From: Methanomassiliicoccaceae archaeon DOK
GTDB taxonomy: Archaea; Thermoplasmatota; Thermoplasmata; Methanomassiliicoccales; Methanomethylophilaceae
Direction of reading: 5' to 3'
Assembly: GCA_009911715.1 (NCBI GenBank)
Contig: CP047880.1
Coordinates: forward strand, 558,001-622,000
Length of the DNA: 64,000 bases
Shown: positions 6,556-23,405 of the stretch, in pieces
Layout of the letters: every line of letters begins with the position of its first letter
Numbering within the stretch: position 1 is the first letter of the stretch
Position numbers and translations under genes: made by a program
The notes under the pieces: generated by a model
The model's input: only the letters and a program-made list of their open reading frames with translations
What the model was told of the DNA's origin: nothing
Databases searched by the model: none

Positions 6556-9500
6556 GATTGAGAACTCTCGTATCTGACAACACTCTCAAACAGCTCCTCA
6601 GAAGACGCGGATACCGGATGTAATCGAGAACTCTCGTATTTGACAACACTCTCAAACTTTCGGCAAATTATTCCCGAAAATGCACAAGATCGAGAACTCT
6701 CGTATTTGACAACACTCTCAAACCATCCCATCTCTTGATCGCCTCTTCGCGTGGATCGAGAACTCTCGTATTTGACAACACTCTCAAACGGACTGATGGC
6801 TGACGGGCCCGAGGACCTCGATCGAGAACTCTCGTATTTGACAACACTCTCAAACTACCCCATGCGGTTTTACCCGCATTTCCCAGATCGAGAACTCTCG
6901 TATTTACAACACTCTCAAACTCGTGCCGGTGTAGGATTTCTCGATAGTGAGATCGAGAACTCTCGTATTTGACAACACTCTCAAACATGACGACATAGCC
7001 AAGCCTCTCCAGTCCAGATCGAGAACTCTCGTATTTGACAACACTCTCAAACCACCACGATGAGCAGCGGGATGATGTTGATGATCGAGAACTCTCGTAT
7101 TTGACAACACTCTCAAACACGCCGAGTAGTCGTTGATCCTGATCGCGTGATCGAGAACTCTCGTATTTGACAACACTCTCAAACAAGGTTCAGTGTGCAT
7201 GGTGGTTCGACTATGATCGAGAACTCTCGTATTTGACAACACTCTCAAACGCATTAGATTCCAGTGGATTGGGATGTCATGATCGAGAACTCTCGTATTT
7301 GACAACACTCTCAAACCTCACCGTTCCACGTAACGCCCTTGTAGGAGATCGAGAACTCTCGTATTTGACAACACTCTCAAACCCGTTCGCCACCGCTGTC
7401 TGACAGTCTCCAGATCGAGAACTCTCGTATTTGACAACACTCTCAAACAAATGACGGGCATGTATGAGAGCCTGAATGGATCGAGAACTCTCGTATTTGA
7501 CAACACTCTCAAACGCGTTCGTCTGGAACCTGAAGCTGAATGAAGATCGAGAACTCTCGTATTTGACAACACTCTCAAACGATGTCCTGCACGTTCCCCC
7601 AGTCCTGCGACGATCGAGAACTCTCGTATTTGACAACACTCTCAAACACGATCTCGGCGATCAGTTCGGCGTCACTCGATCGAGAACTCTCGTATTTGAC
7701 AACACTCTCAAACCGAACCTCTGCCGGTTGTTCTGATCTCCATAGATCGAGAACTCTCGTATTTGACAACACTCTCAAACCTGATGCACACCCCTAACAT
7801 GCCGTTCTCGGATCGAGAACTCTCGTATTTGACAACACTCTCAAACGGATGATCAATGGGAAGGAGTCCTTTCCCTGATCGAGAACTCTCGTATTTGACA
7901 ACACTCTCAAACAAGACATGATGGTGAAAGGATGCGTTTCGAGATCGAGAACTCTCGTATTTGACAACACTCTCAAACAAAGAAGCAGAACAAAGACGGC
8001 AATCGCCGGATCGAGAACTCTCGTATTTGACAACACTCTCAAACATCATTCTCCGACTCGGACCATCCCAGAAAGATCGAGAACTCTCGTATTTGACAAC
8101 ACTCTCAAACACATACATCTACTTCCACGAGATAAAGAAGGATCGAGAACTCTCGTATTTGACAACACTCTCAAACAAACCAAAGAGGGGATGTTCGTGG
8201 CTTCATGATCGAGAACTCTCGTATTTGACAACACTCTCAAACTGAAGACAGCCTTCGACCTGAACGACGGTAGATCGAGAACTCTCGTATTTGACAACAC
8301 TCTCAAACCAAGCTTGTTCTGCTCTGTGGTCAAGTCATGATCGAGAACTCTCGTATTTGACAACACTCTCAAACGTGACAGGAAGGCATCGGAGTTCATC
8401 ATCCGATCGAGAACTCTCGTATTTGACAACACTCTCAAACATAGAGAGGGAGATGATTTCACACATCCCCGATCGAGAACTCTCGTATTTGACAACACTC
8501 TCAAACCGGCCACCGGTCCTCACGGCCGTCTTCGAAGATCGAGAACTCTCGTATTTGACAACACTCTCAAACCGAAGGCGTTCGGTTTCGTAGAACCTGA
8601 TCGATCGAGAACTCTCGTATTTGACAACACTCTCAAACCGCGCGCACGCGATTAAAACCAGTTATCGTGATCGAGAACTCTCGTATTTGACAACACTCTC
8701 AAACAAAATGGTCGTTTTGAAGCAATGATACAGGGATCGAGAACTCTCGTATTTGACAACACTCTCAAACGTGACCATCTTAACGGCGGTTCCTTCGATG
8801 GATCGAGAACTCTCGTATTTGACAACACTCTCAAACAGGTTATCGTAAGGATGCTCTCGAGATCGTGATCGAGAACTCTCGTATTTGACAACACTCTCAA
8901 ACCCACTTCCAATCTTCACACCACCAAGCGTAGATCGAGAACTCTCGTATTTGACAACACTCTCAAACCAGGCCGTTTTGGATAATCCGGATTTTCTCGA
9001 TCGAGAACTCTCGTATTTGACAACACTCTCAAACATGGTTCGATGTTTACCACGGTCTACAATGGATCGAGAACTCTCGTATTTGACAACACTCTCAAAC
9101 GGTCCGGCGTGTACGTCCCCGTCCCCTCTCGATCGAGAACTCTCGTATTTGACAACACTCTCAAACAGGCCGAGAGGCATCGGATCATCTTCACCGGATC
9201 GAGAACTCTCGTATTTGACAACACTCTCAAACTCGGAATCGACAGCCAGGACGCATTCCAGAGATCGAGAACTCTCGTATTTGACAACACTCTCAAACAG
9301 AACACAAACTGGACAAGATCTAACCGCCGATCGAGAACTCTCGTATTTGACAACACTCTCAAACCTTATGAACGGCTTTTTGGATAACAACCGCGATCGA
9401 GAACTCTCGTATTTGACAACACTCTCAAACGCATGTCATCGTATGCCATCTTACCTCATCGATCGAGAACTCTCGTATTTGACAACACTCTCAAACCATG

Positions 9501-9826
9501 CGCCACGTCTCCCAGATCCGTGGGCAGATCGAGAACTCTCGTATTTGACAACACTCTCAAACAACCTACCTAACCTTGTTCCGATGAAGATTGATCGAGA
9601 ACTCTCGTATTTGACAACACTCTCAAACCACTATCTCGTCGCCCTCTTCATCCCTCTTGATCGAGAACTCTCGTATTTGACAACACTCTCAAACGGAATT
9701 CCTCGGTATCATCAGTCATAAGGAGATCGAGAACTCTCGTATTTGACAACACTCTCAAACACATCTCAGAACCTCCCGACCTTGACGGTCGATCGAGAAC
9801 TCTCGTATTTGACAACACTCTCAAAC
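6556..9826 (-). CRISPR. Type II-A CRISPR array, 50 repeats and 49 spacers
   Basis: Fifty 36-base repeats, mostly at a 66-base period, give 49 spacers: 47 of 30 bases and two of 31 (7581-7611 and 7714-7744). Read on the minus strand the repeat starts GTTTGAGAGTGTTGTC and ends with the palindrome CGAGAGTTCTCG followed by ATC. From about 6951 to 9826 all repeats appear identical. The low-coordinate end is degenerate: the repeat at 6556 has two substitutions, that at 6622 differs at its outer base, and that at 6886 lacks one G. Degeneracy marks the old, leader-distal end, so new spacers enter at 9826 beside csn2. No AT-rich leader separates csn2 from the array. I saw no spacer clearly matching elsewhere in the window, but did not search exhaustively. 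Confidence 0.98.
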
Positions 9827-10510
9827 CTCAAATATGTTGTCACGTGGAAAAAGCACTATCTCGCATTGATCTGAGTCGATTATTACTGCTGGATGAGTGT
9901 GGTCAGTGAATCTGCTGTTCACCATTAATACGGGAGTTTGAAGGTATATGATGTTTCTCAAGAGTTCTCTGTATCTTTCTTCGGACATGTATTCTGAGAT
10001 ATTGACCATTACCACCAGCCTGTATTTTGTGTATTTCCCAACCAAACGTATGAAATCGTAGACCCTTTCATCGAGGTTGTGACTCTCTGAGAACCTGAAC
10101 TGCAAGGCCTTGACTATCTCGGATGCGGTGGGCTCTGTCAATTCGAATTCCGTTTCAATCTCTGCAGCAATATTGCACATGTGGCTTCTCAGGTCGCCCA
10201 GAAGCTCTGAGGTGCGAACATAATAGTTTTCTGAAAGTGCATTGGTAGTCAGTGTCTGTGTGAATCCACTCAGTATCTCCTTTCTATTTGGGTTTGCATC
10301 GAAGGGCCCCATGGAAAGCAATACTGATTTGTGAAACTCATGGATCACTCCGTTGGATGACAGTACAAACCGTCCATCGAATCCCCGAATTTGATCAATC
10401 ATTTCTGACATTAATTTTCCTAGGAAATCAGGGTTTTCGACAATCAGTTGCCAAACAGGCGAGATGTCAAAATCCATGCATTCAGATAGCAAATAATGGC
10501 TAAGTTTCAA
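9821..10510 (-). CDS. csn2: Csn2, type II-A spacer-acquisition protein
   Basis: A 229-residue protein in the canonical fourth position of a type II-A operon. The N-terminus 'MKLSHYLLSECMDFDI' and the segment 'LMSEMIDQIRGFDGRFVLSS' fit the Csn2 family; Csn2 forms a tetrameric ring that binds DNA ends during spacer acquisition. Length fits (about 220 residues in streptococci). The start is TTG 10510, overlapping the cas2 stop as TTGA. The gene end is unusual: the last codons read ATA TTT GAG GTT TGA, and the stop plus the codon before it lie within the first CRISPR repeat (9821-9826). The gene is AT-richer than the host background. Confidence 0.85.
   Translation of the reverse strand: MKLSHYLLSECMDFDISPVWQLIVENPDFLGKLMSEMIDQIRGFDGRFVLSSNGVIHEFHKSVLLSMGPFDANPNRKEILSGFTQTLTTNALSENYYVRTSELLGDLRSHMCNIAAEIETEFELTEPTASEIVKALQFRFSESHNLDERVYDFIRLVGKYTKYRLVVMVNISEYMSEERYRELLRNIIYLQTPVLMVNSRFTDHTHPAVIIDSDQCEIVLFPRDNIFEV
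9827..9833 (-). promoter_or_regulatory. Leader-anchoring motif ATTTGAG inside csn2
   Basis: On the minus strand the seven bases directly before the first repeat are ATTTGAG. The same motif at the leader-repeat junction directs polarised spacer integration in one group of streptococcal type II-A systems (established knowledge). Here it overlaps the codons for the last Ile-Phe-Glu of Csn2, so the leader function appears embedded in coding sequence. I see no promoter that must lie here. Confidence 0.6.
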
Positions 10511-10827
10511 AGTACCACGAACCGGTCTAAGGTATCTAAGATCTCTTTTTGGGATTCGCCGACCAGGAACTCCATTTCCTGGTATTGTCTTTCAGAAACG
10601 GAAAGCAGAATCACGTTGCCTGTTTTCGGACGGTTGTTACGGAGATTCTTCCTGACGGTCTCGGCAGCAGTCGCATTTATGGCTATTTTAGAATACACAG
10701 ATTCCTGAATCATGATGAATCCCTGCATCTGCAGGTATTTCCGGAAACGTGTATACTGACGTCTGTCTTCAGCTGTTTTCACAGGGAGATCGAAGTACAC
10801 TATCAATCTCATCGCTCTTACTCTCAT
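10507..10827 (-). CDS. cas2: Cas2, type II-A
   Basis: A 106-residue Cas2 with the N-terminal 'MRLIVYFDLPVKTAEDRRQY' strand and the type II 'FRKYLQMQGFIMIQESVYSK' segment. Cas2 is the structural dimer that bridges two Cas1 dimers in the spacer integrase. I chose ATG 10827 by alignment with streptococcal Cas2, whose start also precedes the MR-hydrophobic strand by a few residues; ATG 10812 is possible. It overlaps the 3' end of cas1 by 59 bases and its TGA overlaps the TTG start of csn2, so the operon is tightly coupled. Confidence 0.92.
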   Translation of the reverse strand: MRVRAMRLIVYFDLPVKTAEDRRQYTRFRKYLQMQGFIMIQESVYSKIAINATAAETVRKNLRNNRPKTGNVILLSVSERQYQEMEFLVGESQKEILDTLDRFVVL

Positions 10828-11689
10828 AGTGGCAGAACCTAAGCCCGAAAACATCTCTAGAATCCAGGGAATCAACAACACTTTTCACATAAATGCGCAA
10901 GGCGTTTCCGAGATACTGCGTTTTTCCATTCATTTCCACGGTGCGATTCAGGATGGATGCGAGCATCCGTTTTGATTCTGGAGACAATCCCTTATCAGAC
11001 ATGTCTAGTACCATTCTGTCCACAAGTGGGCGAAGGGGCTCCATTAAATCACTCCCCAGATTGTAGTGGTTGGAGGCGTTGTCATGGAACACCCCCAACT
11101 CTGTTGAATATCCTAGAGACACGATTTCACGGTTGACTGCAGACAGTAGGATTGCATATCCGTAGTTCAGCAGGGAGTTAATCTCGCAACTGTTCCTTCT
11201 GGAGAAATCATCACCGAACAACGTGTTGAAATACACCTTGGCTGCATGACCTTCGCGGTTCGTACAATCATTGAACTCCACCGATTCTGCGTATCTGCGA
11301 AGAAGTTCAGCCCTGTCATAATCAAATCTCTCCAGAAGGTCGGCCTGGCAGTTGATTTTCTCCGATACAATCTGTGACCAGATTCTTCCCTTGGTTTCAT
11401 CGTCCCACTAGATCTGTGCTCTCAGTTTCCCCGGAGAGTCATGGCAGCCGTACAACGGCGTCATTTCTGACATGGGATTATGCATCTCATCGCAGAAGAT
11501 CACCTTGATATTTCTTCTGCACAGTTCACACAGCAACATCGACGTGAGGGAGACTGCAGTGCTTTCGATCATGAGCACCGATATCTCGGACAGATGTATC
11601 TTCCGGACATCGGTGCCCCTGATGACCAGATATCCAAGTTTCAGGTCGAGCTTGGAATTACTGGATATGACCACGGTTCTCCAGGTCAT
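10769..11689 (-). CDS. cas1: Cas1 integrase with one in-frame amber codon (candidate pyrrolysine protein)
   Basis: One frame from ATG 11689 to the stop at 10769 encodes a full-length type II-A Cas1 of 306 residues if the TAG at 11410-11408 (codon 94) is read through. Before it stand 'TWRTVVISSNSKLDL' and 'MTPLYGCHDSPGKLRAQI'; after it the same frame continues 'WDDETKGRIWSQIV' and 'NREGHAAKVYFNTLFGDDF'. The join matches streptococcal Cas1, where a Ser precedes the Trp. The presumed active-site residues (Glu in NREGHAA, His in GVFHDN, Glu in DLMEPLRP) all lie after the amber codon, so the 93-residue product would be inactive. In Methanomassiliicoccales TAG encodes pyrrolysine; a real nonsense mutation is the alternative. 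The start is one base after the cas9 stop. Confidence 0.9.
11408..11410 (-). other. In-frame TAG in cas1
   Basis: The codon between Ile93 and Trp95 of Cas1 is TAG on the minus strand. Both sides are in the same frame with no indel, and conserved Cas1 sequence continues without a gap. No other in-frame stop interrupts the 306-codon frame. Confidence 0.9.
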
Positions 11690-11690
11690 G

Positions 11691-14600
11691 TCAGTTTATT
11701 CTCACTTTATTCTCCCAAAGGCCGGAAGGCGACTGGTTGATGATGAACACTTCTGCAGATTTCCTGTCGGGAAGTTTCTTGTTTACCTGAATCCTTCCCG
11801 CGACCGTAGATCCTTTGATTGCTTTGAGATTGGCGTTTGAGTTGTTGCAGTGGAAGGCAAGGAGTATCGAGTTCAACAAAGATGCCTGCTCCAAGCAATC
11901 GAGCTCTTCGAATTCGATCCTACCAGAATGGAGGTTCTCACAGAATGCGGTCATGAACTGCTCATATGGTTTTGAACTGGCCCTCTGCGCCAGATAATCA
12001 TAGAGATCCATGTTCATGTCCTGGGTTATTCCGTAGTATTCTGCTGGTCTGATAACCCTGTCCTTACGATCCGAATCGAATTTGAAGAGGATTTTACAAT
12101 ACTTCATTCTTGTATCATCCATCAGGAGGTTGACGGCGTTGTAGAACAGGATGCTGTCGCCAGTTCTTCCACCTATATGCATCCTGAATCCGTTCCATTC
12201 GAAGAGGGTGTTTAACCTGATTACGGGAATGATTACTTCTACGTCCTTTCCCATTGTCTCGCTGTGATATCTGCGTATGGAATCCGGTTTGTCGATTGCA
12301 CCCAGCATGTAAACCGGCACGACTTCTAAGGACCGGATGGTTCTTTTCTTGTCTTTGTATTCCACAAGGGAATAGCAGGCTCCCGTTGGTTTATTGTACC
12401 CACCATACTTTTCGGTATCCATCCCTCTCTTCCTTTCGATGGCGTTTCCTTTAGCTCTCACAAGGTTGTCATCGAAAAATGCGCCCTTCTTTACAAACGG
12501 TTGTTTGGTGAACAGTATGTTGTTGCGTCTCATATTCTTTAGAACAATCCTCATGCTTCCATTTTCCCCGGGTATCCATGCGGTGTTTCCGCTCCTGGAG
12601 ACTTCGCTATCGTACATCTTGGAAAGATTGTAATGTTCGCCAGAGTCGATAAAATTCCGATAGTCCTTGGTGAATTTGGTGTCATACACGTTACCAACAA
12701 CAATATTCAAGTATGCGTCCTTAGCGTGATGATAGTCGTTTATGGATCTGCATTTGATCATGACGTCCGATCCGCTGTTTTGGCGGAATTCTGACACGAG
12801 ACCTGCTTTGACATACACAATCTCTGTGTCTCCTCCGAAGAGCCTTCCAAGAATCTCTACGGCCCCTTTGACAGATTGGCTAGTCTCCACCAGCTGACGG
12901 CTGATGAATCTGCTGAGTTCGTCCTGGCTGAAATCATCTTTTCTGACTAGGCGTGAATATTTCTCCGAAGTGATGTACTTCTTATCACGCAGGATATCCC
13001 ACATGGGCTTCATGCTCATCTGTACTTCGGGAGCTATGGGGAATCTGTTGCTCTTCTCTGAGTTGCATTTCTTGCATGAAAGGACCAGATTGTTGTGGAT
13101 GCTGTCATCCTTGATTAGTGACTGAGGGTAGATGTGGTCTCTGTCAACGGAGTCTGTGTTTCCAAGTTCCTCTATGTCGATTTTGCGACCACAATACATG
13201 CATCTGCCCAGCTGAGTGTAGTAGAGATACATATTGCGACTTTTGAGGTCTGCATCACTTCTGCTTTCCAGATCTGTTAACCATTGGGAATCCTCCCGAC
13301 AGGCCTTGTACAACTGGATCAACGTGTTTCTCCTGGATTCGGTGCGTTTCTTCTTGGAAGGGTCTATGTTCTGACGTGTCGTCTCCACGAAAACCTTCTT
13401 CGGAGGATGTCCGATGAATTTCATGACATCCTTTGCCACACATACGGTTCTCCATATGCCACGTTTAACAGCAGGAGAGACATACAACCTGTCCACAGAT
13501 CCGTAATCGATGTCTGCATCTGTCGTCATCTCCTGATTAATTTTCTCAATCTGTTTCTCGAATCCATATCTGGATAGTACTTCCATCAGGTTGTACTGGG
13601 TGTTCTCCATGATGTCCAGGATACAGGCATCTCTGCCGAGTTCAGGACTGAATTCATGGAGTCCTGTCAGGAACCTTTTGGACAGCCTCCCCCAGCCTTC
13701 GAATCCGAGTTTGGCAAGCCTTCCTATCTCTTCGTCGGTTAGACGATCGCCGAAATCCGTCTTCAGTTTCCTTCTGATATCTTGGGCTTCTTCGAAAACC
13801 GTTACGATGCGGATAATCTCCTCGCAAAAGTCTCTATCATTTGCCTTCTGTCCGATTATTTCTTTCATAATCGTCAAAGGTCTGAGGGATGTTTTGATGT
13901 CATTATCCATTCCTGTGATCTCTGCATCCTCTCTGCCGTCCAATACTCCGATACTAACAAGATATTTTGATACGGCGTTCTTGGTCACGCGACCTTTTCT
14001 ATCGGGATTTTCGAACAGGTCAGAGACCATGCGTTTTTTGATGTCGACAGGTACACGGTCACCATTGACACGTATGTTGTTCAGTTCATTGTATAATGTG
14101 AAGTACGAATACACGATGGAATTTTTGGGAAGGACCTTCTCTCCAATCATGTATGTGCACATGCTTGTGAGATTCTCCATGAACGCTTCTGCACTTGCTT
14201 CTCTGTCTACCACGTCATCGAAGTTCCAGGGTCTCACCGGGGTGTTGGATTTGCGGACAGCCCATGATCTGTTTACAGCACCCATGGGTGCTGATGTATT
14301 CAGAGGCCCTACATAATATGGAATTCTGAAGCCCTGAATCATGATTACCTTGTCAGCCGTTGTCAGCCCATCCTCGTTCACAGTTTTTAGGAATGGGTAG
14401 AAGCGGGATGCGTTTTCAAGGATCTTGATCATCTCATCTTTATGGATTGTGTACGGGAACACACTGTTAGTCTTTGAGGTCTGTTTAGGCATGAACGTCC
14501 CGTCGGAGAGGCGCGTCATCATATCGTTGTATTCTGGATCGTTTTTGGCTTCGGTTTTTGATAAGACGGACAGGCAGAATTTACAGAATTCCTCCTGATT

Positions 14601-15701
14601 GCAGCTTTTCTCGGGTTTGATCTTTCCACATTTGCCAGAGTAACTGCAGTAGTTACCCATGATAGTGCCACTTTTGAAGACATCCTTGTACATGTCGCTG
14701 GCATACTTACGAACCGCCTTTTTCAGCAGAGCCAGATCCGAGCGGTGCTGCTCATACGATGCAATTTTTGCATACGATATGGAGCGATGTCCTTTCAGAA
14801 GAGATGATAGTACTGACCAGTTGTACACCTGCTTGACGATTCTCAGAGTGTTCCACTGGTCTTCGTCTAAGATGTCTTCGAGTTCTGCCATCTTGTCTTC
14901 GATGGAATTATCGGAGAATGATATGCCGTCAGATTCTATGGAATCGTCCTCAAAGATGTCTGAAGGTTTTACCTTGGCTCCTGCCAGAAGCTCTCCGAGT
15001 TTGCTCTCTGGTTTAGTGGAACAGCCAAGAGCCTCCTTCACGAGTCTTTTGCGGTCTGTCACACGTATGTTGCGATCAGTGAGGATTCCATTCAGAATCT
15101 CATAATCGGAGACATTCAGATCCATGCCGTACTTCATCACATCCTGAATCAGTAAGTCGATGATTTCCTTGAAGTCAGGAATGCCGTCTGAACTGATGCT
15201 ACTGAAGATGAAATGGCCCCTGAATTTGATGATGTGATGTAGAGCAAGGTAAACAAGCCTGATGTCTGGCTTCTCATCTGTTTCCATCAGGAATTTGCGA
15301 AGATGATAGACGGTTGGGAATTTCGAGTGGAATTCTTTGTCTGTGAAGTTCTTGTCGTTAAACAAGCTGTTGCTTTGTTTGATAGTTTTATCTTCAACAT
15401 GCAGTCCGCTCTCGTCCAGTCTCTGGAAGAAAGAGGGGTCTATCTTGCAGACCTCTTCATCAAACAGTTCGCGAAGGAGTGCCACTCTTTGTTTGCGACG
15501 TTCTAGTCTGCGTCTTGCACATCTGTGCATTCTTCTTTCGGCGGCTGTTTTCCCTTCTTCGAAGAGATGTACACCCCACATCGCTTTTCCTCCGCATTCG
15601 AGAATGTTGTACTCCGGGTCTGTGGCTGCCCAACCCAGGGAGCTCGTTCCGATGTCGAGTCCGAGATAGTACTCGTAATCCGCGATATTTAGTCTATTCA
15701 T
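11691..15701 (-). CDS. cas9: Cas9 RNA-guided endonuclease, type II-A
   Basis: A 1336-residue Cas9, close in length to the S. pyogenes enzyme. All nuclease motifs are present: RuvC-I 'YYLGLDIGTSSLGWA' (Asp16), the arginine-rich bridge helix 'RRMHRCARRRLERRKQR', RuvC-II 'KKVFVETTRQN' (Glu773), HNH 'DRDHIYPQS' (His856) with Asn880, and RuvC-III 'NDYHHAKDAYLN' (His992, Asp995). It should cleave both strands of target DNA guided by crRNA and tracrRNA. The HNH region has two CxxC pairs (Cys834/837 and Cys876/879), a probable zinc site absent from SpCas9. The start ATG 15701 has a TATA box ~25 bases upstream, implying a leaderless mRNA. AT-richer than flanking genes, consistent with transfer from Firmicutes-like bacteria (inference). 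Confidence 0.98.
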   Translation of the reverse strand: MNRLNIADYEYYLGLDIGTSSLGWAATDPEYNILECGGKAMWGVHLFEEGKTAAERRMHRCARRRLERRKQRVALLRELFDEEVCKIDPSFFQRLDESGLHVEDKTIKQSNSLFNDKNFTDKEFHSKFPTVYHLRKFLMETDEKPDIRLVYLALHHIIKFRGHFIFSSISSDGIPDFKEIIDLLIQDVMKYGMDLNVSDYEILNGILTDRNIRVTDRKRLVKEALGCSTKPESKLGELLAGAKVKPSDIFEDDSIESDGISFSDNSIEDKMAELEDILDEDQWNTLRIVKQVYNWSVLSSLLKGHRSISYAKIASYEQHRSDLALLKKAVRKYASDMYKDVFKSGTIMGNYCSYSGKCGKIKPEKSCNQEEFCKFCLSVLSKTEAKNDPEYNDMMTRLSDGTFMPKQTSKTNSVFPYTIHKDEMIKILENASRFYPFLKTVNEDGLTTADKVIMIQGFRIPYYVGPLNTSAPMGAVNRSWAVRKSNTPVRPWNFDDVVDREASAEAFMENLTSMCTYMIGEKVLPKNSIVYSYFTLYNELNNIRVNGDRVPVDIKKRMVSDLFENPDRKGRVTKNAVSKYLVSIGVLDGREDAEITGMDNDIKTSLRPLTIMKEIIGQKANDRDFCEEIIRIVTVFEEAQDIRRKLKTDFGDRLTDEEIGRLAKLGFEGWGRLSKRFLTGLHEFSPELGRDACILDIMENTQYNLMEVLSRYGFEKQIEKINQEMTTDADIDYGSVDRLYVSPAVKRGIWRTVCVAKDVMKFIGHPPKKVFVETTRQNIDPSKKKRTESRRNTLIQLYKACREDSQWLTDLESRSDADLKSRNMYLYYTQLGRCMYCGRKIDIEELGNTDSVDRDHIYPQSLIKDDSIHNNLVLSCKKCNSEKSNRFPIAPEVQMSMKPMWDILRDKKYITSEKYSRLVRKDDFSQDELSRFISRQLVETSQSVKGAVEILGRLFGGDTEIVYVKAGLVSEFRQNSGSDVMIKCRSINDYHHAKDAYLNIVVGNVYDTKFTKDYRNFIDSGEHYNLSKMYDSEVSRSGNTAWIPGENGSMRIVLKNMRRNNILFTKQPFVKKGAFFDDNLVRAKGNAIERKRGMDTEKYGGYNKPTGACYSLVEYKDKKRTIRSLEVVPVYMLGAIDKPDSIRRYHSETMGKDVEVIIPVIRLNTLFEWNGFRMHIGGRTGDSILFYNAVNLLMDDTRMKYCKILFKFDSDRKDRVIRPAEYYGITQDMNMDLYDYLAQRASSKPYEQFMTAFCENLHSGRIEFEELDCLEQASLLNSILLAFHCNNSNANLKAIKGSTVAGRIQVNKKLPDRKSAEVFIINQSPSGLWENKVRIN

Positions 15702-15720
15702 AATAGAGTAATTTGCTGAC

Positions 15721-15732
15721 TTATTTATATAG
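15721..15732 (-). promoter_or_regulatory. TATA box for the cas9 operon
   Basis: On the minus strand CTATATAAATAA is centred about 26 bases upstream of the cas9 ATG, the normal archaeal TATA-to-start distance, so transcription should begin at or next to the start codon. It would drive cas9-cas1-cas2-csn2 and perhaps the array. Confidence 0.7.
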
Positions 15733-15737
15733 TGAAG

Positions 15738-15747
15738 TTATAAATAA
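15738..15747 (+). promoter_or_regulatory. TATA box for tracrRNA
   Basis: TTATAAATAA on the plus strand predicts transcription from about 15765, some 45 bases before the anti-repeat. It lies back-to-back with the cas9 TATA box, so the two divergent promoters nearly touch and could be co-regulated. A second AT-rich stretch (15770-15785) might give a shorter transcript. Confidence 0.5.
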
Positions 15748-15794
15748 TTAGAATCAAGGACCTAAGTACAAATAATTAATTTTATCTATTATTG

Positions 15795-15895
15795 CATACA
15801 ATACAAGTTCGACAACACGAGTTCAAATAAGGCATAACCGGAATCACCCGAAAGGGTCCCGCAATTGGCGGGGATCTCGTTTGTCAATATTTTTT
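15795..15895 (+). ncRNA. tracrRNA of the type II-A system
   Basis: The anti-repeat is GACAACAC (15811-15818), GAGT (15819-15822), TCAAAT (15823-15828). Against the repeat start this gives an 8-bp upper stem (GUGUUGUC:GACAACAC), a bulge of GA opposite GAGU, and a 6-bp lower stem (GUUUGA:UCAAAU, one G-U pair). This equals the S. pyogenes layout (6-bp lower stem, 2/4-nt bulge). Next comes AAGGCATAACCG (15829-15840), nexus-like, then hairpin ACCC-GAAA-GGGT (15846-15857), hairpin CCCGC-AATTG-GCGGG (15858-15872) and a six-T run at 15890-15895 as terminator. The 5' end is approximate. It lies between cas9 and the nuclease-helicase gene and is transcribed away from cas9. Confidence 0.88.
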
Positions 15896-15975
15896 AATTT
15901 GAAGCTATTAACATCATAATAGTCGGTATTCCATAATAGGAAATTGTTTGCATTTGAAACACATCCACACTCACA

Positions 15976-17871
15976 ATGATCATCTACAGCGACACCAAAT
16001 CAGGTTTTATCGATGACATAGTCAACGGAGTCCTGGACGAGAAGCTGGAGTCGCTGATGACGGAGCGTTTCGGCAAGGGCACCTCGGATGGCGAGCTCCG
16101 CGCCTGGCGCAATTCCCTGACGTACATGGGCAACATAATCGGGGCCTCATCGATTCCCGCGGATTCGGGCATCGCCATCGAATACGGCATCCCGTACACA
16201 TCGAAGCGCGTCGACCTCATCGTCACAGGGCTGAACGAGTCGGGAGGGAACTCCGCCGTCATCGTGGAGCTGAAGCAGTGGGCCTCTGCGGAGGCGGTTC
16301 CGGGCAAGGACGGGGTGGTCCGCACACTCGTCGGAGGCGGCATCCACGAGGTCGCGCATCCGTCGTACCAGGCATGGTCGTACGCGGAGGCGATCGAGGA
16401 CTTCAACGCCGATGTCCGCGACAGGGGCGTTGTGCTCGCCCCCTGCGCGTGTCTCCACAACTACAATCCGCCCACGCCCGACCCGCTGGCATCAGACGCA
16501 TACGCGGAGTACACGTCGAGAGCTCCGATGTTCACAAAGCACCAGGGGTCCGACCTGAAGGGCTTTCTCGAGAGGTTCATCAGGAAGGGGGACGGTGGCG
16601 AGACGATATTCATATTGGACCGGGGGAGGCTCAAGCCTTCCAAGTCCCTACAGGATGTTCTCTCATCCATGATGCGCGGCAACAGGGAGTTCACGCTCCT
16701 GGACACGCAGAAGGTGGTCTACGAGGAGGTCCTCCACCAGGTCAGGGCTATCGCCCGCGGAGGAGGGAAGAGGACGATCGTCATCCGCGGCGGCCCAGGG
16801 ACGGGGAAGACCGTTCTCGCCGTCAACCTACTGTCCGACATAACCTCGCTCGGGATGTCCTCCCTGTACGTGTCCAAGAACGCCGCGCCCAGGAACGTCT
16901 ACAGCGTGCGGCTCAAGGGACAGAAGAGGGGACGCAGCCGTGTCGACAAGCTGTTCGTTGGTTCCGGGAGCTTCGTCAACGCGGAGGCGGATGTGTTCGA
17001 CGTTCTCCTGGCGGACGAGGCCCACAGGCTCAACGAGAGGAGCGGTCTCTACCAGAACCTCGGTGAGAACCAGGTGATGGAGATCATCCGGGCGTCGAAG
17101 CTGTCCGTCTTCTTCATCGACGAGGACCAGAGGGTGACCCTCAGGGACATCGGAACGGTGGACGAGATCAGGAGGTACGCGAGGCTGCTCGGTTCCACGG
17201 TGACGGAGATGGAGCTCGACTCCCAGTTCAGATGCTCGGGATCGGACGGATACCTCTCATGGCTCGACAGCGTTCTGCAGATCCGCGAGACCGCCAACCT
17301 GGATCTCGAGGATCCCGGGTTCGCGTACGACTTCAGGGTCTACGACGATCCGAACGAGATGAGGGCCGACATAGAGGAGAGGAACGCCGCGAACAACAGG
17401 TCCAGGCTGGTCGCCGGATACTGCTGGAACTGGATCTCCAAGGGGAAGGACGATTCGGATGTGCACGACGTGACCATCCCGGAGCACGGGTTTGGCATGA
17501 GCTGGAACCTCGGAAGCACCGAGACCTGGGCCATAGACGAGGGGTCGATCAACGAGATCGGCTGCATACATACCTGCCAGGGGCTGGAGTTCGATTATGT
17601 CGGGGTGATAATCGGCGACGACCTGAGATACGAGGACGGGAAGGTGGTCACGGACGCATCCAGGAGGGCGAAGACCGACCAGTCGCTGAAGGGCCTGAGG
17701 AAGCGGTACCCCGACGAGGACGAGGCTGGCAGGGTGGCGGACAGGATCATCAAGAACACGTACAAGGTGCTGATGTCCAGGGGGATGAAGGGCTGCTACG
17801 TCTACTGCACCGATCCCGGCATGAGGGAGCACCTGAGGAAGAGGTCGATGACCGATCGGAACCTGTTTTGA
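15976..17871 (+). CDS. PD-(D/E)XK nuclease-DUF2075 helicase fusion
   Basis: A 631-residue protein. The N-terminal ~170 residues hold a nuclease-like pattern, Asp in 'KRVDLIVTG' and Glu/Lys in 'AVIVELKQW'. The C-terminal part is a superfamily-1-like helicase of the DUF2075 (Schlafen-type AAA) class: Walker A 'IRGGPGTGKTVLAVNLL', Walker B 'LLADEAHRL', 'LDSQFRCSGSDGYLSWLDSV' and the late motif 'IHTCQGLEFDYVGVI'. DUF2075 proteins recur in defence islands, but this exact combination has no function I can name. It lies next to the tracrRNA and, unlike the cas genes, is GC-rich like the host. A role in degrading foreign DNA or RNA is inference. The start ATG 15976 gives the full N-terminal domain. 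Confidence 0.75.
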   Translation: MIIYSDTKSGFIDDIVNGVLDEKLESLMTERFGKGTSDGELRAWRNSLTYMGNIIGASSIPADSGIAIEYGIPYTSKRVDLIVTGLNESGGNSAVIVELKQWASAEAVPGKDGVVRTLVGGGIHEVAHPSYQAWSYAEAIEDFNADVRDRGVVLAPCACLHNYNPPTPDPLASDAYAEYTSRAPMFTKHQGSDLKGFLERFIRKGDGGETIFILDRGRLKPSKSLQDVLSSMMRGNREFTLLDTQKVVYEEVLHQVRAIARGGGKRTIVIRGGPGTGKTVLAVNLLSDITSLGMSSLYVSKNAAPRNVYSVRLKGQKRGRSRVDKLFVGSGSFVNAEADVFDVLLADEAHRLNERSGLYQNLGENQVMEIIRASKLSVFFIDEDQRVTLRDIGTVDEIRRYARLLGSTVTEMELDSQFRCSGSDGYLSWLDSVLQIRETANLDLEDPGFAYDFRVYDDPNEMRADIEERNAANNRSRLVAGYCWNWISKGKDDSDVHDVTIPEHGFGMSWNLGSTETWAIDEGSINEIGCIHTCQGLEFDYVGVIIGDDLRYEDGKVVTDASRRAKTDQSLKGLRKRYPDEDEAGRVADRIIKNTYKVLMSRGMKGCYVYCTDPGMREHLRKRSMTDRNLF

Positions 17872-18054
17872 AGGAACCCCACATCCGATGCCTGCCGATT
17901 CCATGACGGTGACAGAATCCATTCGGATGCCATGTAGCAGTTGACGTCCGGACTGTGATCGAAGTTTGTCGTGAAGTGAAACACAACGTCTGATCCGGAA
18001 CCACTGCCCTGTCGCTTGCTCACAATGACCATCCTGAGACGGGTTCTCCGGGAT

Positions 18055-18186
18055 TCAGGCGAGTCCTTCCTTCCTGAGATAGCGGTCGAAGTCCTCGCTC
18101 TCCCCAATTTGTCCTATGAACAGCTTGTCGGAACGGTTGATTCTGAACTCCCAGCCTGACCAGTAAAAGTAAATCAGGTCGGGAGT
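18055..18186 (-). pseudogene. C-terminal remnant of an unidentified protein
   Basis: Forty-three codons on the minus strand read 'DLIYFYWSGWEFRINRSDKL' and 'GESEDFDRYLRKEGLA' before TGA. The sequence looks like a genuine protein end (aromatic strand, charged helix) but the frame is closed upstream and lacks a start. I do not recognise the family. The hairpin at 18142-18191 covers its first third. Confidence 0.3.
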
Positions 18187-18191
18187 TCAGA
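18142..18191. repeat. Long imperfect inverted repeat
   Basis: TCTGAACTCCC (18142-18152) pairs perfectly with GGGAGTTCAGA (18181-18191), and after one mismatch and a G-T pair the stem continues with CCTGA (18155-18159) and TCAGG (18174-18178). The result is a stem of about 18 bp with a ~14-base loop. There is no T-run, so it is not an obvious terminator; a small mobile-element end or structured RNA is possible. Confidence 0.55.
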
Positions 18192-18271
18192 GTGATATGT
18201 TAGTGTCTGTGTTCCGATTGTTGTTTCCAAGGGCACTATCGGTTTCAACCGATAAACTCGGTCTTTAAGAT

Positions 18272-19066
18272 TTAACACAGTTTCATGTCCACTGTGATTG
18301 CAGCGTGGTCGCTCCCGGCCTTCACAGCCCCATCATAGTCGTATCTGCAGCTGTAGTCTATGAACCTGGATCCGTTCAGGTAGACGAAGTCGTACCTTAC
18401 CTTGTCTTTGCTGCTCCGGATTACATGAGAGCAAGTGATGCATCTGCCCTCGATGGGTCTGCTGGTGTCCACATTTCTTATGAGCGAGTCCCTGAGTCCG
18501 CATTCCTCCATCGTTCTGAAGAACGTGGGAGCGCCGTTGTCTCTACTTCTCTGCTTGAAGAATGTCATCTCCTCTGCGGAGTAGCCATCGACTTTGGGCT
18601 CGTTCGCATCGATACCTACGATGTCCGGCCTCATTTCATCCACCGCTTCGGCATAAGACAGGAACTGGTAGCTCTTGGCCATCACATGGTCGCAACCCGT
18701 GATGGAGTGAAGACCGAACACGCGCATGTCCTGCCCCTCCACATGTAGATCTGCCCAAAGGGTCCTGTCCGGCATCAGGGATCTGGGAAGCACACCTGAT
18801 CCTCTGACCTCTATGTCATCGCTTGCGATTATGGCCACACCAAGCTCGCGGGCCCCACTGTCGTACTTCCCCGGGGGGCGGAAATCCAGAGAATACAGGA
18901 ATATTCCTTGTCCGCCGAACTCGTCCCGGAGGAGGGATGCCAGTGTCGGCTTCACCTCCTGCAGGATGGCTATGAAGCTCCCCTCGTCGAGGTTCCCCTT
19001 CAGGTAGTCTATCTTGTTTTCCGCTCCATTCATGGAGCACACGTTCCAATCCAATATCCTGACCAT
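18272..19066 (-). CDS. Endonuclease/exonuclease/phosphatase-fold protein
   Basis: A 264-residue single-domain protein of the EEP superfamily (DNase I/exonuclease III fold), metal-dependent phosphoesterases. Motifs in order: 'RILDWNVCSMNG' (metal/Asn), 'AILQEVKPT' (catalytic Glu), 'VFGLHSITG', 'DIVGIDANEPK' (Asp/Asn) and the C-terminal 'AGSDHAAITVDM' (catalytic His after Asp). No membrane or secretion signal. The substrate cannot be told; a DNA repair or defence nuclease is plausible given the neighbours, but the family also includes sugar and lipid phosphatases. The ATG 19066 follows a purine-rich site. A palindrome past the stop (18238-18253) may be its terminator. Confidence 0.8.
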   Translation of the reverse strand: MVRILDWNVCSMNGAENKIDYLKGNLDEGSFIAILQEVKPTLASLLRDEFGGQGIFLYSLDFRPPGKYDSGARELGVAIIASDDIEVRGSGVLPRSLMPDRTLWADLHVEGQDMRVFGLHSITGCDHVMAKSYQFLSYAEAVDEMRPDIVGIDANEPKVDGYSAEEMTFFKQRSRDNGAPTFFRTMEECGLRDSLIRNVDTSRPIEGRCITCSHVIRSSKDKVRYDFVYLNGSRFIDYSCRYDYDGAVKAGSDHAAITVDMKLC

Positions 19067-21549: not shown

Positions 21550-21632
21550 TAGATTTGGCTGAGAATTTGCTTGTAGATTTGGCTATGAAAAATGTTGTAG
21601 ATTTGGCTGAGAATTTGCTTGTAGATTTGGCT
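21550..21632. repeat. Four direct repeats, 24-bp period, upstream of ATPase A
   Basis: The core TAGATTTGGCT starts at 21550, 21574, 21598 and 21622. Units 1 and 3 are identical over 24 bases; unit 2 differs in its second half; unit 4 is partial. The set lies 50-130 bases before the start codon of the minus-strand ATPase and upstream of its TATA box. The 24-bp period would place copies at slightly more than two helix turns, as in arrays bound cooperatively by one protein. Confidence 0.85.
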
Positions 21633-21724
21633 ACAAGTCAACAGCGAGAACCGGTGGTTGCTGTCCGCATCCGAACGTCTGGCACATTTGTGGCTACACT
21701 GTTGCCACAATTTCACAGAAGGTG

Positions 21725-23290: not shown

Positions 23291-23405
23291 GACAAAAATT
23301 CACGATTCGGAAATTTGTGAAACAAAATTTACGATTGCGAAAATTATGAAATGAAATTCACGATTAAGAAAATTGAAATATGAAATTCACGGTTAAGAAA
23401 AATCA
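23291..23405. repeat. Four direct repeats, 29-bp period, upstream of ATPase B
   Basis: The core ACGATT (last copy ACGGTT) starts at 23302, 23331, 23360 and 23389, exactly 29 bases apart, each preceded by AAATT(C/T). The last unit ends at the start codon. Unit sequence is unrelated to the repeats upstream of ATPases A and D. Confidence 0.85.

Follow-up and report, generated by a model that had tools for sequence, protein, structure and literature searches.

Introduction

In Streptococcus pyogenes the third hairpin of the tracrRNA is a terminator, and in the form named tracr-L a portion of the RNA pairs with its own anti-repeat. In the type II-C systems of Neisseria meningitidis the crRNAs reportedly undergo a processing-independent maturation, with promoters located within the repeats. 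It has been documented for S. pyogenes that the coprocessing of tracrRNA and pre-crRNA requires both the double-stranded RNA-binding domain (dsRBD) and the catalytic aspartate of RNase III (PMC3936727), and that tracr-L is a natural single guide (PMC11417352). As for Archaea, a 2025 classification assigned their Cas9 to type II-D, in DPANN, and stated that archaea lack RNase III (PMC12669027).

Here we analysed a window of 64,000 nt from Methanomassiliicoccaceae archaeon DOK (CP047880.1, positions 558,001 to 622,000), a gut methanogen of the family Methanomethylophilaceae (order Methanomassiliicoccales), in which a tracrRNA with S. pyogenes-like pairing, divergent from cas9, had been predicted from the letters alone. 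Among open-licence papers on Cas9 or RNase III in archaea and on Cas9 in Methanomethylophilus, none was found that reports this system.

The cas locus and its relatives

The window lies on a single contig of 1,889,135 bases (99.79% complete). On its minus strand, cas9 (11691–15701) encodes a II-A-type protein of 1336 aa (TIGR01865, E = 5.4e-271; Cas9_REC, HNH_4, Cas9_PI) and is preceded by a TATA-like element, CTATATAAATAAG (15721–15733, minus strand), which, being about 20–30 bases before the ATG, may belong to a leaderless promoter. On the same strand follow a type II cas1 with an in-frame TAG at codon 94 (10768–11689; TIGR03639, E = 6.9e-90 with the TAG read through), cas2 (10507–10881; TIGR01573, E = 5.1e-21), an open frame whose true start is probably further in, and, in operon after cas1-cas2, a type II-A csn2 (9821–10510; TIGR01866, E = 6.2e-29). 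The CRISPR array (6556–9826, minus strand) is read from its high-coordinate end and comprises about 50 repeats, each 36 nt long, separated by spacers of 30 nt. Its first repeat is abutted by ATTTGAG (9827–9833, minus strand), which we take to be the leader-anchoring sequence found at the leader end in type II-A and which occurred in all six archaeal arrays examined.

The RuvC, HNH, REC and PI domains are all present in this Cas9, as in type II-A, and among proteins of solved structure its best matches are large II-A-type Cas9s, including SpCas9. D16, E773, H992, D995, D855, H856 and N880, by motif presumably the RuvC/HNH residues expected from SpCas9, are present and invariant in six archaeal Cas9s. 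The csn2 gene, the type II Cas1, a tracrRNA near cas9 and complementary to the repeat, the repeat and spacer lengths and ATTTGAG likewise agree with type II-A; type II-D does not fit the 1336 aa of the protein or its NF049971 score, 76.5 bits against a cut-off of 375. Judged by its genes, the locus is a complete type II-A system (cas9-cas1-cas2-csn2) with a variant tracrRNA.

Among the 147 genomes of the order Methanomassiliicoccales, 8 proved to carry such a Cas9, and a further one was found in L039, a MAG labelled Methanimicrococcus, whose termite-gut origin is taken from the isolate name and for which mis-binning is possible. In a quick tree, the nine archaeal Cas9s formed one clade (SH-aLRT 100) beside two Bacillota Cas9s, L041 and L048, with a support of 83 for this sister relation. 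One locus of the nine, G031 (L009 / L036), carries a degenerate, 938-aa Cas9 that lacks the GLDIGT motif and the RuvC-III part, and neither an array nor a tracrRNA was found near it. Probes with the three newest spacers of the window returned no targets, and when viral sequences were scanned with the Cas9 alignment, two weak matches in the HNH region were all that appeared; the contigs concerned (L117 and L118) resemble the HNH part of Cas9 only and probably encode unrelated HNH nucleases. Between genes, at 21550–21633 and 23296–23401, we also noticed short tandem repeats built of 24-nt and 29-nt units.

The TAG in cas1 (11408–11410, minus strand) stands where G086, a genome of the host's genus, has Gln; as the genome encodes PylS, it probably encodes pyrrolysine in this type II-A Cas1. 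In Ca. M. alvus, a Cas1 containing pyrrolysine had already been predicted at the type V-A (PreFran) locus (PMC4153887). It might be argued, from this TAG and from the degenerate Cas9 of G031, that the locus is dead, either as a recent import from bacteria or because the TAG breaks cas1. We regard this as very improbable, since the organism encodes PylS, all the catalytic residues of cas9 are in place and invariant, and the roughly 50 repeats are uniform; moreover, the archaeal Cas9s are only 43–58% identical to that of the window and yet form one clade, so that any import is not recent.

The tracrRNA and its pairing geometry

The tracrRNA, from its predicted start to the T-run, covers 15811–15895 on the plus strand, as read in the sequence and as matched by a covariance model (E = 1.9e-18, with the host's own genome included in the model). 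Its anti-repeat, GACAACACGAGTTCAAAT (15811–15828), is complementary to the repeat, GTTTGAGAGTGTTGTCAAATACGAGAGTTCTCGATC, on the minus strand: the upper stem, GACAACAC (15811–15818), pairs with GUGUUGUC over 8 bp with zero mismatches, a GA/GAGU bulge follows (GAGU at 15819–15822), and the lower stem, UCAAAU (15823–15828), pairs with GUUUGA over 6 bp including one G-U. Downstream come the nexus, AAGGCATAACCG (15829–15840), whose AAGGC is kept in the 8 aligned archaeal copies and reads AACGG in the later-found G075, then hairpin 1 (15846–15857) and hairpin 2 (15858–15872), both recognised by fold and covariation, a 3′ tail, and six T (15890–15895), presumably the archaeal terminator. The S. pyogenes-like pairing of the original prediction, with its upper stem, bulge, lower stem and nexus, was thus confirmed in the sequence. 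Of the extent that it had proposed, the T6 end stands, but the 5′ end is likely at about 15811 and not at 15795; the two hairpins were also correct, but the 17 nt between hairpin 2 and the T-run had been overlooked, and these make up a tail pairing with the anti-repeat.

The bulged pattern GACAACACNNNTTCAAAT has one mismatch-free match in the 1.889-Mb genome, and the sole other match has 2 mismatches; no better anti-repeat of this form therefore exists in the genome, as the original prediction needed. The exact pattern was used instead of duplex energy alone, by which GC-rich stretches outscore the true site, and a plain alignment scan overlooked the window's own anti-repeat. An Rfam scan of 9500–18500 matched no family. 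A tracrRNA was found at 8 of the 9 archaeal Cas9 loci, and the covariance model detected two more, in G051 and G075, genomes without a detected Cas9, which brings the related tracrRNAs to ten archaeal genomes (n = 10, several of them mutually related). Chance is excluded by its presence, in equivalent positions, in nine further archaeal genomes, and on these comparisons 15811–15895 is a genuine tracrRNA of an archaeal Cas9 with II-A pairing geometry. Its divergence from cas9, as predicted, was seen too; however, since the bacterial relatives also have both the II-A bulge geometry and this orientation, these two features alone are ordinary for type II-A in this Cas9 clade. Directly downstream of the tracrRNA, on the same strand, lies a gene (15976–17871) whose product has a Schlafen group 3 helicase domain, possibly another defence gene.

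A shortened anti-repeat and a fixed TATA-like position

The repeat:anti-repeat core measures 14–18 bp in archaea, where two values of 22 and 25 stem from separate distal pairs, against 23–28 bp in nearly all of the 41 bacterial relatives, the exceptions being L042, L043 and L044 with 18–19 bp. In L033 and L031 the pairing of the anti-repeat with the repeat can extend slightly further.

A TATA-like box, TTTATCTA (15781–15788, plus strand), lies 30–23 bases before the predicted start of the tracrRNA and at the same place in 10 genomes. When these were aligned on TTCAA, the seven columns from −40 to −34 formed an A/T block (68 of 70 cells) that none of 20000 rotations reached, and a peak of the TATA score at −41 was matched in 96 of 20000 rotations. 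The boxes of G051 and G075 are independent evidence, as these two genomes were found by a model without the promoter region. A calibration of TATA positions on the genes of the window gave no sharp peak. The usual distance from TATA box to start in Archaea is about 26 bases; applied as a generic value to the observed box, it sets the predicted start at −11, where the upper stem begins (15811 in the window). Thus, an archaeal promoter seems to start the tracrRNA at its working end.

The 3′ tail and the closing stem

Of the 59 bacterial copies, 50 had a terminator hairpin followed by a U-run; of 8 archaeal ones, 2 did, and both hairpins were weak. In the window, the 3′ tail CTCGTTTGTC (15876–15885, plus strand) pairs instead with 15811–15821 of the same RNA in a closing stem. 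By folding, the tail pairs 8–12 nt of the anti-repeat in 7 of 8 archaeal copies, against a median of 2.7 in the 59 bacterial ones, and the consensus fold of the archaeal tracrRNAs contains a closing stem of 10 bp, which is weak in L034 and G075. Within this stem 83.8% of the cells are paired, with a covariation score of 0.329; when the partners were slid, these values did not exceed 44% and 0.150. When tails were swapped among genomes, 40 of 40320 permutations (8 genomes) and 190 of 200000 (10 genomes) were equally good; since the closing stem was part of the model by which G051 and G075 were detected, the tails of these two genomes are only partly independent evidence. Scoring the tail with a truncated anti-repeat against shuffles gave no signal for the window, because its pairing takes in the bulge bases CGAG, and was replaced by whole-RNA folding and the swap test.

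The tail could be a fossil, namely a degenerate inverted repeat left by an ancestral array and complementary by descent only. Indeed, it resembles repeat positions 9–17, as it must by construction, and a single inherited change may be counted many times in the covariation. We consider this explanation rather improbable, as the likeness to the repeat ends where the complementarity to the anti-repeat ends, the nearest bacterial relatives have no tail pairing, and the pairing tracks the altered anti-repeat of each lineage.

A somewhat better candidate, although still an unlikely one, is that the closing stem serves chiefly in termination or 3′-end formation, in replacement of the terminator hairpin, and hides the anti-repeat as a side effect. 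The loss of terminator hairpins in the archaeal copies would fit, as would the position of the stem just upstream of T-rich DNA in the window (W), L031 and G075; on the other hand, in several copies (L034, L035) the tail is not followed by a strong T-run, and archaeal termination needs T-runs and not hairpins.

In the predicted fold of 15811–15895 the molecule is closed, with anti-repeat bases 1–11 almost fully paired except for a bulged C (base 6); folded without the tail, the same bases are mostly open. The fold energy was −28.1 kcal/mol for the RNA alone and −41.4 kcal/mol with the repeat added, which restored the 8+6 bp duplex, so in this model the repeat can still outcompete the tail for the anti-repeat.

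RNase III in the host and in the order

The original prediction had supposed that archaea usually lack RNase III and had proposed a search for its gene. One was found in the host genome (G000:C1:205452-205826, E = 1e-25), and the RNase III-like family was matched in 93 of the 147 genomes of the order, host included. The host protein carries the ERLEFLGD and ADxFEA motifs, and its catalytic motif is intact; for the proteins of the host, G086, G112 and G124 no dsRBD model matched at E 0.01, and the catalytic domain alone was matched. The supposed absence thus needs revising: the enzyme domain is encoded, but in the host family it comes without a dsRBD. In some RNase III proteins of another family in the order a dsRBD-like tail seems to be present on inspection by eye. 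Cas9 carriers are not clearly enriched in RNase III, and in G039, which has a tracrRNA, no RNase III was matched in a genome 86% complete. The E. coli enzyme without its dsRBD reportedly retains some activity.

These data bear on a rival explanation, that of an ordinary II-A tracrRNA whose duplex, like that of Streptococcus, is cut by the host RNase III-domain protein, and in which neither the tail nor the short anti-repeat has a special role. The gene with its two motifs, its spread in the order and the identity of geometry with SpCas9 are what one would expect in this case. However, the dsRBD required in S. pyogenes is missing, the tracrRNA of G039 stands beside no RNase III match in that incomplete genome, the duplex is only 14–18 bp, and the fixed TATA position and the tail covariation would be left unexplained. 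We therefore hold this explanation to be unlikely.

Discussion

It had been suggested that the bacterial design could work unchanged in this archaeon. This is not supported: the archaeal copies agree among themselves, but set against their closest relatives in bacteria they have another anti-repeat length, another promoter position, another nexus composition and another 3′ end. At the level of sequence, a tracrRNA, its shortened anti-repeat, a fixed TATA-like position and a covarying tail are established. That the tracrRNA is independent of RNase III is suggested because its start seems to fall at the working end and its tail can fold onto the anti-repeat.

Our preferred explanation, which we think probable, is a type II-A tracrRNA adapted to archaeal expression, with a near-mature 5′ end and a self-closing tail that would make its trimming by RNase III unnecessary. 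The archaeal TATA box would make transcription begin with base 1 of the upper stem, and the RNA, near-mature at its 5′ end at birth, would need no RNase III cut there. Transcription would stop at the T-run, and the closing stem, in place of the bacterial terminator hairpin, would shield both ends and hide the anti-repeat. The pre-crRNA repeat would then displace the tail and add the lower stem, the duplex would load Cas9, and either trimming or the RNase III without dsRBD would define the ends of the crRNA. Closure might protect the ends, keep free tracrRNA inactive or aid 3′-end formation. Against this proposal, the RNase III-domain protein of the host, with its intact motif, could act on a short helix. 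Further points against it are the small set of ten sequences, several of them related, the weak closing stem of L034 and G075, the slightly longer pairing possible in L033 and L031, the generic TATA-to-start distance, and the three spacer probes without a target. More broadly, we see about even chances that this is a distinct archaeal class of tracrRNA, whose promoter-defined 5′ end and self-sealing tail freed type II-A from tracrRNA processing by RNase III and explain the crossing of Cas9 into methanogens.

Full II-A systems with csn2 occur here in animal-gut methanogens, in an order mostly bearing RNase III domains and with a tracrRNA layout absent from the bacterial relatives. Dual-RNA maturation in archaea becomes directly testable, and a compact self-closing tracrRNA design is on offer, as are native Cas9 tools for methanogens, which are relevant to methane emission.

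Compared with known systems, the Bacillota II-A loci with GTTTGAGAG repeats (L041, L048 and relatives) are alike in Cas9 family, divergent tracrRNA, GA/[AG]AGU bulge, 6-bp lower stem and hairpins 1 and 2; they differ by an anti-repeat duplex of 23–28 bp, an A/U-rich nexus, a terminator hairpin with U-run and the lack of a consistent tail pairing. The tracrRNA of SpCas9 has the same bulge size, lower stem and AAGGC nexus start as that of the window. N. meningitidis II-C places promoters in the repeats, whereas here the promoter of the tracrRNA would be placed so as to pre-trim its 5′ end. In tracr-L, where a portion of the RNA likewise pairs with its own anti-repeat, a 5′ extension supplies a guide, whereas the archaeal tracrRNA pairs through its 3′ portion and provides no guide. 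Unlike what we propose here, the S. pyogenes tracrRNA is matured by RNase III (PMC3936727). The type II-D systems of DPANN are similar in that Cas9 occurs in archaea and maturation is thought to proceed without RNase III (PMC12669027), but they combine a small Cas9d with a cas4 adaptation module, whereas the window has a large II-A Cas9 with csn2.
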